The position numbers were made by a program, and so were the translations under genes. From contig CAJQHR010000003.1 of NCBI GenBank assembly GCA_905478225.1, positions 1 to 64,000 of the forward strand: a stretch of DNA of 64,000 nucleotides, in the 5' to 3' direction. The DNA is from an uncultured Crocinitomix sp. Lineage in GTDB: Bacteria; Bacteroidota; Bacteroidia; Flavobacteriales_D; Crocinitomicaceae. Positions 1 through 10,951 of the stretch are shown here, piece by piece. The stretch's first letter is position 1. Each line of letters starts with the position of its first letter. The notes under the pieces were generated by a model. The model was not told the DNA's origin. It did no database searches and saw only the letters and a list, made by a program, of their open reading frames with translations.

Positions 1-250
1 TGGCATTACGCTCTGTGTCTCCATTTAAACGCTTTTTACCCGCTTCAATAAAGTCCTTGCTCCAACGATAATAAAGTGCTGGTGCTATGCCTTCTTTACG
101 ACAGATTTCTGAAATAGATTCTTCTCCCTTTAATCCTTCAAGGACGATTCTGATTTTCTCTTCAGAACCAAACTTTCTTCTGGTTTGTCGTCTGATGTCT
201 TTTACAACCGCCTCGGCTGTTCTTTTTCTTGGTCTTCCTACTTTTCCCAT
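1..250 (-). CDS. IS3-family transposase OrfA (partial)
   Basis: This is the N-terminal 83 codons of an OrfA-type DNA-binding subunit of an IS3 transposase, which binds the element ends and is normally fused to OrfB by programmed frameshifting. The translation starts MGKVGRPRKRTAEAVV and contains the characteristic helix-turn-helix segment EEKIRIVLEGLKGEES followed by EICRKEGIAPALYYRW and FIEAGKKRLNGDT. It is cut by the window edge at base 1, so neither the leucine zipper nor the frameshift site is visible. Family assignment rests on recall of this very conserved HTH_Tnp_1 pattern and is firm; the subgroup is not determined. Confidence 0.85.
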   Translation of the reverse strand, partial: MGKVGRPRKRTAEAVVKDIRRQTRRKFGSEEKIRIVLEGLKGEESISEICRKEGIAPALYYRWSKDFIEAGKKRLNGDTERNA

Positions 251-279
251 TATTATTTACTTTTTAAGATTTGATAAAG

Positions 280-301
280 CCTTGAAAGACGTCTTTCAAG
301 G
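280..301. repeat. Perfect 22-bp palindrome in the IS leader
   Basis: The bases read CCTTGAAAGAC followed directly by GTCTTTCAAGG, a perfect self-complementary 22-mer. It lies between the inferred end of the IS (about 360) and the OrfA start (250). By position it could form an RNA hairpin that shields the transposase gene from transcription or translation coming in from outside, as known for several IS elements, or it could be a protein-binding site. The function is inference. Confidence 0.7.
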
Positions 302-361
302 TAATAAACTGTTACTTAACTTTATCTCTTAAGTGGTAAACATTAGGCTGACATTTTACAG

Positions 362-616
362 TTACTTTCTTCTCTCATACTGTTCTTTTATCTTGTTCTG
401 AACTTCTATTGGTAATTGACCAATCCCTTTCTCCAGTACCTTCTTACCATTTTCTAGGATTGATTCCCGATACTTTTCATAATTAATAAACAGGTTAATT
501 AATGATGTAGTCGTATCAAAGATTTTATCTGGTGGTAAATGATAACCTAATTCTTTAGTAAAATCAAGTAAACTACTCATCAGTTCACCGTGTAATTGAC
601 CGGTTGATTTTTTCAT
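362..616 (-). CDS. Hypothetical protein, second gene of the Rep fragment
   Basis: An 84-residue, charged, probably helical cytoplasmic protein beginning MKKSTGQLHGELMSSLLDFT and ending in the basic string KEQYERRK. I do not recognise the family. An upstream in-frame ATG exists at 646, but the start at 616 is chosen because it is preceded by a strong ribosome-binding site (AAGGAG, 6 bases before the ATG). That site directly follows the double stop (TAA TAA, 633-628) of the extended Rep frame, so the two genes look like one operon. The stop codon lies one base from the inferred IS end, so the C-terminus may have been changed by the insertion. A role in copy control or plasmid/phage replication is only a guess from context. 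Confidence 0.55.
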   Translation of the reverse strand: MKKSTGQLHGELMSSLLDFTKELGYHLPPDKIFDTTTSLINLFINYEKYRESILENGKKVLEKGIGQLPIEVQNKIKEQYERRK

Positions 617-630
617 ATTATTCTCCTTTA

Positions 631-999
631 TTATTTGATTCCCCATAGTGAGTCCTGATTGTGATACTCTTTATTCAGATACGATATACATCGAGTAGAT
701 TTTGATTTCTCAAATAATCTGAAATCCGTATTACCCTAATCCTTGAGTAACTTGGGAAGTTTCTTGTATGATTTAATAATCTTGTTTGTTTTGATAACCA
801 TATGGATGTGTGGTTTTCTATCTGATGTATACTCTCTTACCCAAAACAGTTCTTCAATTAGGTAGTGGTTACTGAAATGTTCCATCTTTCTATTGATTGT
901 CTCATCGGATAACTTGTTTTTGAATGTGGTAGTCACATAGAAATTATAGTTCTTATTTGATAACCATTGTGTTAGTTCATCTTGTTGTTTACTGTTCAT
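631..999 (-). pseudogene. HUH-type replication initiator, split by an in-frame amber codon
   Basis: The first 87 codons contain an HUH-like metal-binding motif (KPHIHMVIKT, about residues 63-72) after a beta-strand-like FYVTTTFKNK segment. An in-frame TAG lies at 738-736. The same frame then continues for 34 codons as GNTDFRLFEKSKSTRC, then ISYLNKEYHN, and ends in TAATAA. The YLNKEY string has the spacing of the catalytic-tyrosine motif (YxxK) of small rolling-circle Rep proteins, so the amber codon separates two motifs that belong in one enzyme. The known family role is nicking of the double-strand origin to start rolling-circle replication. The gene is either a fresh pseudogene or depends on suppression; the pseudogene is more likely given the decay elsewhere in the window. 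Confidence 0.6.
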
Positions 1000-1066
1000 C
1001 TTGTTGTTATTGGGTATAAGAATATCAATCCCATTACTGGGTTCATTCCTTATAAATAATTCTTAA

Positions 1067-1080
1067 TTAGTACCTACTAA
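1067..1080. other. Short palindrome upstream of rep (candidate nick site)
   Basis: TTAGTA-CC-TACTAA is a perfect 6-bp inverted repeat with a two-base centre, lying about 70 bp upstream of the rep start. Rolling-circle origins are often small hairpins close to rep. The stretch from 1000 to 1273 has no other gene that I can see; it also holds the imperfect inverted repeat GAATTTCTC...GAGAGATATTC near 1153-1180. Assignment as an origin is speculative. Confidence 0.2.
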
Positions 1081-1273
1081 CTGTAGGATTTGGATTGTTC
1101 ACTTACACCAATAAGTATTGGATTTAAACGATAAACGATAGAAAATCACAGAATTTCTCAAAATATTTTCTGAGAGATATTCAATCGGGGAGTAAGGGAT
1201 TGAAGGTGTTTGGAGATAATCCTAAAAAGTGGAGTAGGGGATAACGTTATGTGAGTTTGTTATAAATGAGGAG

Positions 1274-1606
1274 TTACATAGGTTCTATATGAACCTGACC
1301 TACCTCAACAATATCTTCTCTATTCATTCTTTCCTCTCTAATCTTACCTTTTTTGTAGATAGAGTGAATATGATTGTTCTTAAAAGTACTTCCTCGAGGT
1401 GTTTTTAAACCCTCTTCATTGAAGATTTGAGATGTCTTTCTATACCCTATAGGGGTAAGAAAATGGTGTTTATATCCACAAATTCGGTTGAATAAATACT
1501 GTTGATATTCACTATAATTTGACTCCCACAATTTGGTAGTAGTTACTGAAAATGAGAATCTTACAATGAGTTTTAAGGGGTAAGGATAACCGGTTGTTTC
1601 TGCTAC
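1274..1606 (-). pseudogene. Recombinase-like small protein lacking its 5' end
   Basis: From a TTG at 1531 the frame encodes 85 residues ending in VGQVHIEPM. The core IFNEEGLKTPRGSTFKNNHI resembles the 'LN..G..TPRG..W....V' segment of the recombinase domain of large serine recombinases and related mobile-element proteins, here followed by HSIYKKGKIREERMNRED. The frame stays open upstream of 1531 and reads YPYPLKLIVRFSFSV, which looks coding, until a TGA at 1609-1607 inside the end of glmS. No credible start codon is present. The 5' end therefore appears to have been cut off where the mobile patch joins glmS. Family assignment is tentative. Confidence 0.45.
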
Positions 1607-3444
1607 TCAACAGTTACAGATTTGGCTAAATTCCTTGGTTGATCTACGTTACATTCGCGCATCACCGCAATATGATACGAAATGAGCTGGAATGGGATAG
1701 TTGCTAAAATTGGAACAACAAATTCATCAGAATTTGGAATTTCAATCACATGGTCTGCAATTTCCCGAACCGTAGTATCCCCTTTTGAAACAATAGCAAT
1801 TAGCTTCCCCTTACGGGCCTTAACTTCTTGAATATTGCTCACTACTTTTTCATAATTTTGCCCTTGGGTAGCAATTACAAAAACAGGCATGTTTTCGTCA
1901 ATCAATGCAATTGGACCATGCTTCATTTCAGCCGCCGGGTATCCTTCTGCGTGGATATAACTGATTTCTTTTAATTTCAATGCGCCTTCTAAGGCAATTG
2001 GGAATGAACTTCCTCTTCCTAAATAAAGTGCATTTGGAGCGTCCTTATAAATCGCAGATACTTCGCGGATATAATCGTCGCTTTTTAAGAGTTGCTCAAT
2101 TTTACTTGGCAACGCTTCCATTTCATCCAATAGGGTTTGGAATTTTTTATCTTCAATTGTACCCCGTTTCTTTCCGATAGAAAGTGCCATCATAGCTAAT
2201 AAAACCAATTGCGTTGTAAATGCTTTGGTTGAAGCCACTCCAATTTCTGGGCCGGCATGGGTATAAGAACCTGCATCCGTCACGCGTGAAATAGTTGAAC
2301 CTACTACATTCACAATTCCTAGTAATGTGGCTCCTTGTTCTTTCGCCATTTTTAGTGCAGCCAACGTATCCGCCGTTTCACCCGATTGCGAAATTGCAAT
2401 CACAACATCATCTTTTCGAATAATTGGATTACGGTATCTAAATTCACTCGCGTATTCAACCTCAACAGGAATTCTTGCCAAATCTTCAAAATAATACTCA
2501 GCCACTAAAGCCGCGTGCCATGATGTTCCACAAGCAATAATTATAATTCGATTTGCTTTCGCAATTTGATCTTCGTAGTCTTTTATTCCACCCAATGAAA
2601 CCCAACCCTCTTTGGCGTTTAAACGGCCCCTAAAACTGTCGTGAATAGCGCGTGGTTGTTCATAAATCTCTTTCAACATGAAATGCTCGTATCCACCTTT
2701 CTCCAATTCTTCTAATTGCATTTCAAGCTCTTGCACATAAGGAGAAACCTCTTTATTGCTAATACTAAATATGCGAAGTCCGTTATAGCGATCGATAATT
2801 GCAATTTGCTCATCCTCTAAATACACTACATTTTTAGTGTATTCAATAATTGGCGTGGCATCTGATGCTAAATAATATTCATCCTCACCCATTCCAATAA
2901 CAAGCGGACTACTTTTTTTAGCAGCAATTATTTTATTTGGTTCTTCTGGCGAAATGACCACAATTGCATAGGCGCCGTGCACCTCATTTAATGCAATTCG
3001 AACAGATTCTGCCAATGAAGCACCACTTTTTTCTTTAATATCTTCAATTAAATGAACCAGTACTTCTGTATCTGTTTCACTTTTAAATACGTGCCCACGT
3101 TTAATCAGCTCTTTTTTAAGAATATCATAATTCTCAATAATACCATTATGTACGAGCGTAATTGAACCATCTCCTGAGGTGTGCGGATGCGCATTAATAT
3201 CATTTGGTAAGCCATGCGTTGCCCAACGTGTATGACCAATTCCTACAGTACCGTTCGTAGGATTGTCTGCAACAAAATTTGTAAGATCAAGTACTTTTCC
3301 TTGTCTTTTAAAGACGTTTAATTTCCCGTCTTCTAACAATGCAACCCCCGCACTGTCATAGCCACGATATTCTAATCTACTTAATCCTTTGATTAAAATT
3401 GGGTATGCTTTTTTATTCCCAATGTATCCAACAATTCCGCACAT
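1603..3444 (-). CDS. glmS: Glutamine--fructose-6-phosphate aminotransferase
   Basis: This 613-residue cytoplasmic enzyme makes glucosamine-6-phosphate from fructose-6-phosphate and glutamine, the first step toward UDP-GlcNAc for peptidoglycan and lipid A. The N-terminal MCGIVGYIG gives the catalytic Cys2 of the class II glutamine amidotransferase domain (about 1-220). Two SIS sugar-isomerase domains follow, with CGTSWHAAL near residue 305, SQSGETADT and STKAFTTQ, and the canonical C-terminus LAKSVTVE. It is full length. The start lies 6 bp after the DUF4270 stop, making it the third gene of a glgA-like/DUF4270/glmS operon. The mobile patch abuts its 3' end. Confidence 0.97.
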   Translation of the reverse strand: MCGIVGYIGNKKAYPILIKGLSRLEYRGYDSAGVALLEDGKLNVFKRQGKVLDLTNFVADNPTNGTVGIGHTRWATHGLPNDINAHPHTSGDGSITLVHNGIIENYDILKKELIKRGHVFKSETDTEVLVHLIEDIKEKSGASLAESVRIALNEVHGAYAIVVISPEEPNKIIAAKKSSPLVIGMGEDEYYLASDATPIIEYTKNVVYLEDEQIAIIDRYNGLRIFSISNKEVSPYVQELEMQLEELEKGGYEHFMLKEIYEQPRAIHDSFRGRLNAKEGWVSLGGIKDYEDQIAKANRIIIIACGTSWHAALVAEYYFEDLARIPVEVEYASEFRYRNPIIRKDDVVIAISQSGETADTLAALKMAKEQGATLLGIVNVVGSTISRVTDAGSYTHAGPEIGVASTKAFTTQLVLLAMMALSIGKKRGTIEDKKFQTLLDEMEALPSKIEQLLKSDDYIREVSAIYKDAPNALYLGRGSSFPIALEGALKLKEISYIHAEGYPAAEMKHGPIALIDENMPVFVIATQGQNYEKVVSNIQEVKARKGKLIAIVSKGDTTVREIADHVIEIPNSDEFVVPILATIPFQLISYHIAVMRECNVDQPRNLAKSVTVE

Positions 3445-3450
3445 AAAATT

Positions 3451-4824
3451 CTAATATTCCGTGTAAGTAATTTCTAATCTTGGTCTATCCTTTAAGCTCG
3501 TATTTGAACCATTAAATATAATGCGTTCAATAGATGAAGCAAAGAATCCTGACGCATAAACTCGGTATCCAACATTTTCTAAGTCACCATTTAAGATGGC
3601 CTGAATTTCTTGAGTCATTAAAAAACGAAACTCTTTATTTTCCTCATCATAGGTAACTGTGTTTCCTGATACTGCTGTCCCGAAACTATAATCGAGAATA
3701 AATACCGATTTTTTTTCATCTTCAACTCTACCCAAGAAAATTCGTGTTGCCGGATCATATGGATCGGTTTGAAAATCTTGAATAGGTAAAATCAACTGAG
3801 CATTGTTTATGATTTTAGGTTCAAATTCACCATCAACATTTGTGTAAAAATCAGTGATGTGAGGGAATTCAATAAAACCACGAACAGATCCACCTTGCAA
3901 ATAAAAGGCCTCTTCACCTAAAGTTTGATCTGCTAATGCGTCTGCTACAACAGTTCCAGTGCGGTCATAATCTATTTTATTATAGCGAGCCGTAGTTGTA
4001 TTGATTCTAAAATCAAATTCCTCTGCTTCACCTTCACCATTCGTATAATACAAAGTCAATCTCGATAATATATCCTCCAAGTTAAAATAGAGTACCGTTC
4101 CTGTTCCAGGTGCTTCGCCTCCAACAGCAACTTTAACATATAATCCTTTAAAAGTTGTGGTTTGAAAGTTCGATCCCATTTGCCCGTCTAGTGCATCCGT
4201 AATTAAACCTTCTCCTACTTCGGTGTCCAAATTAATTCTCAGTTGTGGCGAAAGTGTATCTGCACCAACAATTGAATTGGCTACAAAGTCCACCTTAATT
4301 TCAGTCCCTTCAATTGCATCTAGCACTAAGTTATTACTGGCATCAATTAAAGTTGGAGTATCACTTGTATAATAATCTTGATCTTCTCTCGTCAAGACAT
4401 CATCAATTTCATAAACTTCAACCACAATGTCTTCAATATTTGCATAATAATTGATTGAGGTATAGCTTAATGCCAACACCACAGAATCCATATTGAATTC
4501 TCCTAAATCAGTAAATTGAGGATCTAAATTTTCAGGCACTATTTGTGTTACAAACCCACAATTTACTTTCCCAAAAACCGGATCGTTATAAGCGCCTAAC
4601 AGGCCCACACTCGTTTCGTCACTCTCCATTTCAACAATCTCCTCTGAATAGGTTTTGATTGTAAAAGTATCCTGCACTATCACATTCAAGTTCCCGTTTT
4701 GTAAATCGGCACCAATTCCTGTCTCCTCTTTTTTACATGCAATTAATACAAGAACTAAGGCAAAAAAAGTGGCGGAAAGTTTGATAACTTTCCGCCCTGA
4801 ATCTATTTGTTTTTTTATTGTCAT
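3451..4824 (-). CDS. DUF4270 family lipoprotein
   Basis: A 457-residue predicted lipoprotein: basic N-terminus, hydrophobic segment SATFFALVLVLIAC with the lipobox cysteine at about residue 30, then an acidic beta-rich body. The early motif IGADLQ(N) and the overall length match DUF4270, a Bacteroidota family usually encoded between the glycogen-synthase-like gene and glmS, as here. Its function is not established; the genomic link to glmS hints at an envelope or amino-sugar-related role. It begins one codon after the stop of the upstream gene (3 bp gap), implying translational coupling. The protein ends LEITYTEY. Confidence 0.85.
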   Translation of the reverse strand: MTIKKQIDSGRKVIKLSATFFALVLVLIACKKEETGIGADLQNGNLNVIVQDTFTIKTYSEEIVEMESDETSVGLLGAYNDPVFGKVNCGFVTQIVPENLDPQFTDLGEFNMDSVVLALSYTSINYYANIEDIVVEVYEIDDVLTREDQDYYTSDTPTLIDASNNLVLDAIEGTEIKVDFVANSIVGADTLSPQLRINLDTEVGEGLITDALDGQMGSNFQTTTFKGLYVKVAVGGEAPGTGTVLYFNLEDILSRLTLYYTNGEGEAEEFDFRINTTTARYNKIDYDRTGTVVADALADQTLGEEAFYLQGGSVRGFIEFPHITDFYTNVDGEFEPKIINNAQLILPIQDFQTDPYDPATRIFLGRVEDEKKSVFILDYSFGTAVSGNTVTYDEENKEFRFLMTQEIQAILNGDLENVGYRVYASGFFASSIERIIFNGSNTSLKDRPRLEITYTEY

Positions 4825-4827
4825 TTG

Positions 4828-5646
4828 CTAAACAGCTGTTTCTTCAAAAATTTGGTCGTAAAACTCATTTACACGTTTAACGCAAGATTCTTCAGAATAG
4901 TATTCAAGAGATATGGTATCTGAATCTTTAATTGCCTTTGCAATTTCTGAATCAATTGTTTCACTTCCCTGAATCACTCCGTCACAAACTTGAATTGCTT
5001 TTTTAGTTAATGTTACAAAATCAACGCCTTTTAAGTCGGCGATATCTGCATCATCAAAGCCGTCAAATTTAAGCTTTTCGAGGAATTTGGAATCCCAATT
5101 TTTGTTAAAACCATTATCATAAACAGAATAAACAACTTTTGCATCTGTAAAATGAGGATCGTCTTGATACAATTTCTTGATGTATAATGGCGTTAATGCC
5201 GTCATCCAACCATGACAATGAATAATGTCTGGTTTCCATCCTAATTTCTTAACTGTTTCTAAAACTCCTCTTACAAAGAACATAGAACGTTCGTCATTGT
5301 CCTCGAAGTAGTTCCCTTCATCATCACTAACAGTCGCTTTACGCGTGAAAAAATCCTCATTATCAATAAAATAAACTTGGATTTTAGCCTGTGGCACTGA
5401 GGCTACTTTAATGATTAAGGGATGATCCACATCATTAATGATAAGGTTCATTCCCGATAAACGAATGACTTCGTGTAATTGGTGTCTTCTTTCGTTGATA
5501 CATCCATACCTAGGCATAAATGCTCTTATCTCTTTTCCTCCCTCTTGAATGCCCTGAGGCAATTTTCGAGCCGCCGCCGCAATATCTGATTGTGGTAAAA
5601 AAGGTGAAATTTCCTGAGAAATGTATAGTACTCTTTTCTTCTCCAT
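4828..5646 (-). CDS. Short glycogen/starch synthase-like protein (GT5 N-terminal domain)
   Basis: 272 residues starting MEKKRVLYISQEISPFLPQS, matching the N-terminal ADP-glucose-binding half of GT5 glycogen synthases (ISQEISPF in place of the usual SaE.aPf..tGGLaDV; PDIIHCHGWMTAL near residue 145). Full synthases are about 470 residues, and this one lacks the second Rossmann domain with the KxGGL-type nucleotide loop. Short versions like this are common in Flavobacteriia and annotated as glycogen synthase; whether they are catalytic is uncertain. It is the first gene of the operon with DUF4270 and glmS, and its promoter is visible just upstream. I call it glgA-like without assigning the symbol. 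Confidence 0.75.
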   Translation of the reverse strand: MEKKRVLYISQEISPFLPQSDIAAAARKLPQGIQEGGKEIRAFMPRYGCINERRHQLHEVIRLSGMNLIINDVDHPLIIKVASVPQAKIQVYFIDNEDFFTRKATVSDDEGNYFEDNDERSMFFVRGVLETVKKLGWKPDIIHCHGWMTALTPLYIKKLYQDDPHFTDAKVVYSVYDNGFNKNWDSKFLEKLKFDGFDDADIADLKGVDFVTLTKKAIQVCDGVIQGSETIDSEIAKAIKDSDTISLEYYSEESCVKRVNEFYDQIFEETAV

Positions 5647-5672
5647 AAAAAATGTAAGCTAAAATTCGAGTA

Positions 5673-6733: not shown

Positions 6734-8008
6734 ATGTCATATTTATTCACATCTGAGTCCGTTTCAGAAGGACATCCTGATAAGGTAGCAGATCAGATTT
6801 CTGACGCAATTATTGATAACTTTTTGGCTTTTGACCTCGAATCAAAAGTCGCTTGCGAAACCCTTGTAACAACAGGACAAGTGGTTTTAGCAGGAGAAGT
6901 AAACACCAGTACTTATCTTGACGTGCAAAAAATTGCCCGTGATGTAATCAATAAAATTGGTTATACAAAAAGTGAGTATATGTTTGACGGAAACTCTTGT
7001 GGCGTATTTTCTGCCATTCACGAACAATCACCTGATATTAATCAAGGTGTAGATCGCGCAACTAAAGAAGAGCAGGGTGCGGGAGACCAGGGAATGATGT
7101 TTGGATACGCAACTGATGAAACTGAAAACTTCATGCCTTTGGCTCTAGAGCTTTCACACAGATTGTTGATTGAATTGGCTGAGTTAAGAAGAGAAAACAA
7201 AGACATTGACTATTTAAGACCTGATGCAAAATCACAGGTAACAATTGAGTATTCTGACGATAATGTTCCTCAAAGAATTGATGCCATTGTTGTTTCTACA
7301 CAACATGACGATTTTGTAAGCACTGGGAATAAATACGCGGATGACGAAAAAATGTTGAAAAAAATTGATGCGGACATAAAAAACATTTTGATTCCAAGAG
7401 TGATGGCAAAATTGCCGGCTAATATTCAAGCTTTATTCACTGATGGAATTACTTATCACATTAATCCAACTGGAACATTTGTAATTGGCGGTCCACATGG
7501 AGATACCGGTTTGACTGGAAGAAAAATTATTGTGGACACATACGGTGGAAAAGGAGCGCACGGCGGTGGAGCTTTCTCTGGAAAAGACCCTTCTAAAGTA
7601 GATCGATCTGGAGCATATGCCACACGTCATATTGCAAAAAACTTAGTTGCTGCAGGATTGTGTAAAGAAGTATTGGTTCAAGTATCCTATGCAATTGGAG
7701 TTGCAAAACCAACAAGTATTAATGTTGAAACTTACGGAACTGCAAATGTTGATTTAACAGATGGAGAAATCTCTAAAAAAGTAGAAGAATTATTTGACAT
7801 GAGACCTTATTTTATCGAACAACGATTAAAATTAAGAACTCCCATTTATTCTGAAACTGCTGCATACGGTCATATGGGAAGAACTCCTGAAATTAAAACA
7901 GTTGCGTTTACTTCTCCAGATGGAAAAACGACTTCACAAGAAGTAGAAACGTTTACTTGGGAAAAATTAGATTACGTAGATAAAGTTAAAGCCGCTTTCG
8001 GACTGTAA
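6734..8008 (+). CDS. metK: S-adenosylmethionine synthetase
   Basis: This 424-residue cytoplasmic enzyme makes S-adenosylmethionine from methionine and ATP. Diagnostic strings are [16 protein letters not shown] near residues 9-24, the flexible-loop region [37 protein letters not shown], and the phosphate-binding [20 protein letters not shown]. Length and ends are normal. It has its own promoter and a strong terminator directly after the gene, so it appears monocistronic. The intact reading frame across more than 1.2 kb is evidence for good base accuracy in this part of the assembly. Confidence 0.97.
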
Positions 8009-9812: not shown

Positions 9813-10336
9813 ATGAAATCTCCGGACTTTTTAAAACTAAAATCAACTTTGGCTTTTTACCTCCAGAATATATATTTTGTGATTTAGTTGTTTTGAAGAT
9901 TTTACATGGAATGCCAATTACAATAAATGTAAACTTGGGGAATTATCAAATTCTTCAAATACAGCTGTTGCTCTATTGAATGCAATACTTGCAGCAGCCC
10001 ATTCCAAATCTTTAGTTTGAATAACGTTCTGTGATTAACTTGCCAAGATAGAAAACAACAAACAACATATTAAGTAAATAAAATTCCATCCTTTTTGCCA
10101 TCAATCTTCCCTCCCATTTCGTTTGCAAAATCCTGGGATGTCGTCACGCCGGAACGAACAACTCCATGAGCTTGGGCAGTATTACGGCTAATATGGTTCA
10201 TAAATCTGAAGTACCGCTCTTAGTTTTTTATGCCTAACGATTACAGTTTATTTCAGGTTAGTACACATAATAAAGTTCACTGGTTCTATGTTCAACATGC
10301 TTCACCGGCGTATTTAAAAATGTCTATCTTTACTTA
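9813..10336. other. Non-coding or decayed stretch of about 520 bp
   Basis: No convincing gene is present. On the minus strand a 43-codon frame (10201-10070) reads MNHISRNTAQAHGVVRSG, then VTTSQDFANEMGGKIDGKKD, and stops. It looks like natural protein sequence and could be a gene remnant, but I cannot name it. The end of the stretch (10320-10336) contains TATCTTTA, a possible -7 box for the CAP-domain gene. Confidence 0.4.
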
Positions 10337-10951
10337 ATGGTTATGAGTAAAAAAATCTATTTAACGGCATCAGTCATTTTAGTGATAATCAGTAGCACGC
10401 TGATATCAAGCACAGTTGCTTACATTGAATCTAATGATAAGAAAGTCATTGAAGTGACTCATTCAGAAGAAGAATTAAAGTTGTTCAAATTAATCAAGGA
10501 TTATCGGTCAGAAAACGATCTTTCAGAGGTGCCGTTATCCACATCCTTGACCTTTGTTGCACAGCAACACTGTATTGATTTACACGAGAATAAGCCCGAT
10601 TTACCAGCAACATGTAACGCACATAGTTGGTCCGAAAATGGCGCTTGGTCAGCTTGCTGTTATACCCCTGATCATAAAGAAGCTAATTGTATGTGGAATA
10701 AACCAGCTGAATTGACTAATTATGAAGGTTATGGATTTGAAATTGCAGTTGGAAGCAGCGAACCCATTTATGACGGTTATTTCATGACGGCAGACTATTC
10801 ATTCGAAGCTTGGAAGAATAGTTTTCATCACAACAATGCCATTTTGAATCTGGACGTATGGGCCAACACTGAATATAAAGCCATGGGTGTTGGCATCTAC
10901 AAAGGTTTTGCTTCAGTTTGGTTTGGTAGGGAAACTGATCCTGAAAATTAA
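10337..10951 (+). CDS. Secreted CAP-domain protein
   Basis: 204 residues with an N-terminal membrane/signal segment (KKIYLTASVILVIISSTLIS) followed by a CAP (SCP/PR1-like) domain from about residue 45 to the end. Features are LIKDYRSENDL, the cysteine-rich NAHSWSENGAWSACCYT block, CMWNKPAEL, the YEGYGFEIA string, and AMGVGIYKGFASVWFG at the C-terminus. CAP domains are extracytoplasmic and of varied function. The start could be the second Met (10343). The gene stands alone in an accessory stretch between decayed genes and is itself intact. Confidence 0.75.
   Translation: MVMSKKIYLTASVILVIISSTLISSTVAYIESNDKKVIEVTHSEEELKLFKLIKDYRSENDLSEVPLSTSLTFVAQQHCIDLHENKPDLPATCNAHSWSENGAWSACCYTPDHKEANCMWNKPAELTNYEGYGFEIAVGSSEPIYDGYFMTADYSFEAWKNSFHHNNAILNLDVWANTEYKAMGVGIYKGFASVWFGRETDPEN

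Follow-up and report, generated by a model that had tools for sequence, protein, structure and literature searches.

A minus-strand frame near the start of this contig reads like a small replication gene of the HUH type, with an amber codon between its metal motif and its tyrosine motif. A gene arranged in this way raises the question of whether the codon has destroyed the gene or is read as part of it. The preliminary description of the locus had left two readings side by side, that of a very young pseudogene and that of a Rep made only by amber suppression, which would limit replication. We asked what kind of protein the frame encodes, what its closest relatives carry at the position of the amber, and in what genetic surroundings the gene lies.

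A Rep frame with a single internal stop

The window, the whole 64,000-nucleotide stretch of DNA analysed here, begins with the first base of contig 3, so the amber lies 736 bases from the contig start. The Rep gene (631-999, minus strand) has 122 codons plus a stop, with the in-frame TAG at codon 88 (736-738, minus strand). Read from 999 to 634, the frame runs MNSKQQ...KPHIHMVIKT...LLKD up to the TAG and GNTDF...YLNKEY...GIK after it. The HIH motif (H64 and H66) is at 802-810 and YLNK (Y107 and K110), a candidate nicking tyrosine motif, is at 670-681, beyond the amber; both are on the minus strand. No other internal stop precedes the end of the frame, which is closed by a TAA at 633-631. A second TAA (630-628) overlaps AAGGAG (628-623), the ribosome-binding site of the next gene, whose ATG is at 616-614. 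On re-reading the frame, we found everything that had been reported of the letters themselves to be correct: HIH, the TAG at 738-736, YLNKEY, and the double stop over the ribosome-binding site. Beyond that description, the Rep gene turned out to sit inside an element that starts at the glmS stop and is truncated by an insertion sequence.

Motifs and predicted fold point to a minimal HUH Rep

We compared the joined 122-residue protein, with X at the amber, to profile collections. The best curated match was PF23343 (REP_ORF2-G2P; 24.9 bits, E 2.6e-5, residues 22-110), which covers both sides of the amber yet stays under the curated cut-off of 27.8 bits. Joining the two halves for a search against Rep profiles, as had been suggested, gave a match of the expected kind, though not at a score that counts as membership. 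The intact Rep of the relative introduced below (L038) scored 24.1 bits, also below 27.8. Against phrog_7769 the joined protein matched at E 3.4e-4 over residues 14-111. The part before the amber alone gave 21.4 and 20.4 bits in the Pfam and PHROG searches, and the part after it alone matched no profile in either. Because PF23343 also found matches in control genomes (7 of 14 at E up to 1, 3 of 14 at 0.001), weak scores alone mean little. We regard the Pfam and PHROG matches as weak and do not assign the Rep to PF23343.

The intact L038 Rep was modelled with AlphaFold2 from an alignment of two rows. The model, of moderate confidence (mean pLDDT 72.6, pTM 0.67), has strands at residues 18-26, 50-57, 63-70 and 89-97 and a helix at 98-111. 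The HUH metal motif, H64-I-H66, falls on the core strand 63-70. Y107-L-N-K110 falls on the helix 98-111, after the fourth core strand, and has the form YxxK, which we take to be the tyrosine motif of Rep proteins. When the model was compared to the PDB with Foldseek, the best match was 2X3G, the Rep ORF119 of SIRV1 (E 1.5e-4); no other of the 1612 matches reached E 0.001. VIA-align gave the same structure a Z of 10.6, with an rmsd of 2.8 Å over 103 residues at 20% identity, and the next row a Z of 7.4; below 2X3G, viral Reps were mixed with unrelated folds at similar scores. BFVD returned 201 matches at E 0.001 or better. Among the best 50 of these, 43 had no name, and the seven named ones were a putative Rep, two microvirus replication initiators, an ORF2/G2P-domain protein, a parvovirus non-structural protein and two rod-shaped-virus proteins. 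The HUH Rep assignment of the preliminary description, made from motifs, thus holds on profile matches that cross the amber, sub-cut-off in Pfam and weak in PHROG, on a Rep-like fold with 2X3G as its best match, and on the placement of H64/H66 and Y107/K110. A minimal HUH Rep is well supported by motifs and fold, and nicking activity would be expected of it.

A two-row profile of the Rep found 0 matches among PDB sequences at E up to 10; the match to SIRV1 ORF119 is one of fold. Where PMC4187194 treats 2X3G, it describes a superfamily II Rep fold with a catalytic tyrosine, and the relevant lines of PMC6668415 give it a canonical HUH fold and report nicking and joining in vitro. ORF119 resembles the window Rep in size (about 120 aa), in consisting of a lone nuclease domain, and in fold. 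It comes from a linear virus (a rudivirus), whereas the window Rep is bacterial and belongs to an element integrated beside glmS. A second likeness is to clusters of HUH Reps from unnamed integrated elements, one of which is described in PMC6668415 as occurring mainly in Bacteroidetes. The shared features are an integrated Rep and, probably, the phylum, since L038 comes from a Vicingaceae bacterium (Bacteroidota). The gene order and the glmS that the window genome has in common with L038 suggest that it too belongs to the Bacteroidota. Among the few neighbouring ORFs scanned, none matched a virus structural family.

The closest relative has a tryptophan codon at the position of the amber

A scan of genome contigs found one close relative of the Rep, L038, in Vicingaceae bacterium AH-578-N02 (JAOKCF010000013.1). 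Its Rep (5001-5369) is 95% identical to that of the window over all 122 residues, is open throughout, and has Trp at codon 88, from which the window TAG differs by a single base. The gene likewise lies behind glmS, where the ORF before it is the same as in the window and the one after it is related. Scans of viral_contigs with the Rep protein and with the two-row alignment found no relative, and tblastn of the Rep against phages and plasmids gave nothing below E 4. At E 0.001 the Rep was found only in its own genome among nine genomes of the genus, as was phrog_7769 among 399 genomes of the order. PF23343 had four matches in 240 genomes of the family, one of them above the cut-off (L035, a 345-aa frame). 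Two further searches produced candidates that we rejected. At E up to 0.1, 31 of the 240 family genomes had matches to the Rep; the best besides the window's own (E 0.0013) contained internal stops, and these matches were taken as chance as a group. Among 395 genomes of the phylum (query A1), the hits were the window's own genome and G737, the latter inside an unrelated 477-aa ORF.

That the frame is real, beyond chance, is indicated by the open copy at 95% identity, by the Rep-like fold of that copy, and by the pattern of substitution. Between the window and L038, pS in the Rep is 0.150 and pN 0.017, synonymous change exceeding nonsynonymous about ninefold. In the part after the amber, 2 of 81.7 nonsynonymous sites and 4 of 20.3 synonymous sites differ; small though these numbers are, they put constraint there at much the same level as ahead of the amber. 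A tail unconstrained along the whole window branch would be expected to have about 7 nonsynonymous differences (arithmetic on half of the divergence) against the 2 seen, and the amber therefore looks young. In the one relative found, codon 88 is a sense codon within a full frame, as a nonsense mutation in the window would predict; the ancestral sense state rests on this single sequence (n=1). The earlier suggestion of a very young pseudogene is supported by this codon and by the constraint in the tail, small numbers notwithstanding, and the comparison it had called for, with relatives for a sense codon at this place, found that L038 has a Trp codon and does not end there.

The Rep gene lies in an element that begins at the glmS stop

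When the window is aligned with L038, the DNA changes abruptly from a diverged glmS end to a nearly identical element (91% over window positions 429-1598), and the change falls at the stop codon of glmS. This sharp change argues that the boundary of the element is the 3' end of glmS in both copies. The core at the glmS 3' end, ACTGTTGAGTAG (1603-1614, minus strand), marks this boundary and is the likely attachment core. In glmS itself 413 of 613 columns are identical and pS is 0.78; with glmS so much more diverged than the Rep, the element must have spread horizontally. A literature search found no paper on glmS-end elements in Bacteroidetes or Flavobacteria. On its other side the element is truncated by the end of an insertion sequence (1-360, minus strand), which we take to be IS3-like. 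It includes a tnpA piece at 2-250 (HTH_Tnp_1, PF01527; E 7e-11) and ends at 360. Sequence resembling this end is also present at another of the glmS loci, L076.

Downstream of the Rep gene is an ORF of 84 aa (362-616, minus strand), with a diverged relative behind the L038 Rep (5387-5656); none of its family matches is significant (best phrog_21564, E 0.012). Beyond this ORF, L038 has a 58-aa ORF and an excisionase-like HTH_17 gene. Directly upstream of the Rep, a segment conserved in L038 (1020-1056, minus strand) contains the inverted repeat CCCA-gtaa-TGGG (1030-1041), a possible nick-site hairpin; its folding is no stronger than that of shuffled sequence (z -0.8 and -1.0). Farther upstream, between the Rep and the ORF nearest glmS, lies a conserved noncoding segment (1113-1275, minus strand) that is a candidate origin or recombination sequence. 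Folding of the 150-nt noncoding segment gave z -1.8 to -2.5, and, as 3 sequences showed no compensatory change, we do not claim an RNA structure. Two Rfam candidates were discarded: CRISPR-DR36 just upstream of the Rep (1022-1056; 27 bits, gathering 38), present in a single copy and so not an array, and CbSR14 in the first 1.7 kb (21.4 bits, gathering 172).

A second copy of the segment at 1113-1275 occurs elsewhere in the L038 genome (G422:C2:1469-1626, L106), 84% identical to the L038 version. It lies 1.5 kb from a contig start, and no Rep was recognised within the 12 kb examined around it. L038 also has direct repeats of 165 nt (6900-7064 and 10202-10366, 90%), whose start resembles, by eye, an inverted and degenerate glmS-end core; they are perhaps the boundaries of further insertions.

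The amber is read most simply as an ordinary stop

Constraint past the amber is equally expected under functional readthrough, by which full-length Rep would be made at a low level through a suppressor tRNA or near-cognate decoding, limiting replication. This would fit the conserved tail, with the counts given above, and the lack of any further internal stop. Against it, none of the 30 tRNA genes found has a UAG-reading anticodon (ARAGORN names all anticodons), in a list that is incomplete, with no Ile or Ala(UGC) gene named and 150 of 277 first-look candidates scored. TAG is moreover an ordinary stop in the window: of the 31 ORFs at least 200 aa long, 11 end in it, including glmS and the two genes that come next, and the other 20 end in TAA. 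L038 has a sense codon at this position, and the element is truncated by the insertion sequence anyway. With no UAG tRNA found, with TAG common as a stop, and with a strand and a helix lost from the 87-residue product, suppression is a formal possibility, and we consider readthrough very unlikely. The proposal that the Rep is made only by amber suppression is accordingly disfavoured, and the suppressor tRNA genes that it had called for did not appear among the tRNAs of that incomplete list.

Least credible is that the gene truly ends at the TAG and that its 87-aa product, which has the metal motif and lacks the tyrosine, serves a separate purpose, such as repression by binding the origin. Such a product would still contain core strands one to three of the model; L038, however, has no stop there, conservation continues past the amber, and the best profile matches extend beyond it. 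As modelled, the 87-aa product lacks the last core strand (89-97) and the tyrosine helix and should not nick.

The TAG could instead be a sequencing or assembly error, or a variant of a minority strain, with the gene intact in most cells. It is a single base away from the L038 codon, the contig end is near, and the frame shows no other damage. Set against this are the open state of the other two small ORFs of the element and the quality of the genome, rated 98.5% complete with 0.17% contamination, both weak arguments where one base is concerned. We judge an error or variant improbable, if less so than readthrough.

We conclude that the amber is very probably a recent loss-of-function mutation in a decayed integrated element at the glmS end, one that an insertion sequence has also cut, and that it calls for no special decoding. 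The conservation that persists in the remainder of the frame makes a recent origin of the mutation probable. By this account, a small mobile element integrated at the 3' end of glmS, and the window copy has since decayed. The intact 122-aa HUH Rep, judging from fold and motifs, would bind its metal with H64 and H66 and use Y107 to nick an origin close to its gene, thereby starting rolling-circle-type copying of the excised element. In the window genome codon 88 would then have turned to TAG, leaving the 87-aa product, and the IS3-like insertion, as we presume it to be, would additionally have removed the rest of the element. The amber itself is thus ordinary, the mark of a mobile element dying in place. 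Its surroundings are more useful: they hold a minimal HUH Rep for which one close relative is known and whose fold, among solved structures, comes nearest to the Rep of an archaeal virus, and they point to the glmS end as an integration site.

Possible remains of a split serine recombinase

The ORF nearest glmS (1274-1606, minus strand) stays open for 110 codons, starting just beyond the glmS stop, and resembles the C-terminal part of a serine recombinase; there is no ATG where its conserved part begins. The L038 copy (4430-4729) scored 18.0 bits against the Recombinase domain, below the cut-off of 21.1. An hhalign comparison of the C-part profile with a serine recombinase of the family was very weak (probability 1.3%) and located the match at residues 206-232, and the AlphaFold2 model of the C-part was uninformative (pLDDT 37). 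Relatives of the C-part were found in 8 of the 240 family genomes, the window's own included, giving with L038 nine loci with a match. One of these, L080, was then dropped as chance (internal stops, E 1.9e-4). Phages, plasmids (searched with the L085 C-part) and viral_contigs contained no relative.

In the window, L038 and L076, the C-part ORF lies behind the glmS end at an equal distance (41 nt to the reference codon) and in the same frame. At the core of the window that frame ends in a stop, and L076 has a stop within its C-part. At L082, L083, L084 and L085, an exact inverted glmS-end core, TAYTCNACNGT, precedes the C-part, in frame and within an open stretch; in shuffled sequence, the core with one mismatch or fewer occurs in 2.6% of cases per 120 nt. 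No core is visible near the C-part at L074, owing to an assembly gap. In G121, ACGGTTGAATA occurs twice in direct orientation, at glmS and, 5.9 kb away, beside the C-part; its ORF beside glmS, of 418 aa, is not a recombinase N-part. In G114, a Resolvase N-part (102.8 bits; L087:11837-12190) points toward the glmS end, and the frame entering the core there continues the N-part after one frameshift. G114 is the only one of the 240 family genomes with a close N-part at E 1e-8, and at this threshold the N-part is absent from the other genomes with a C-part (G000, G115, G121, G141, G189 and G197). This search comprised the 240 family genomes and, of the L038 genome, the stretches examined. As a separate observation, the gap in G114 (L074:1486-2092) lies inside glmS, holds a C-part fragment and looks like a scaffolding artefact.

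Inverted in-frame cores, together with an N-part at the glmS end of G114, are the remains expected if a recombinase gene that contains the core had brought about integration. We tentatively suggest that glmS-end elements of Bacteroidota carry a serine recombinase gene containing the attachment core and that integration would split it, placing the N-part (Resolvase) and the C-part (1274-1606) at opposite ends and switching the recombinase off. The data searched contained no intact recombinase gene and no complete pair of element ends; these gaps, the lack of an N-part in the searched C-part genomes other than G114, and the 418-aa ORF of G121 speak against this reading, and we hold it to be doubtful. 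If it were true, the small HUH Rep would copy the element only while it is free.

The arrangement recalls the 'suicidal' (SSV1-type) split integrases of archaea (PMC8371274), in that the attachment core at the glmS loci appears to lie within a recombinase frame and N- and C-parts occur apart. That source states that self-disrupting recombinases occur exclusively in archaea. The archaeal enzymes are of the tyrosine type, whereas the glmS-end recombinase looks like a serine recombinase, an unrelated enzyme, and its hosts are bacteria.

Apart from these recombinase-like ORFs, the glmS-side islands of two genomes share a gene for a repetitive, secreted-looking protein (LLPLTSYSQKV... near its start), found at L038:7128-7370, L081:4330-4659 and L086:10364-10693.
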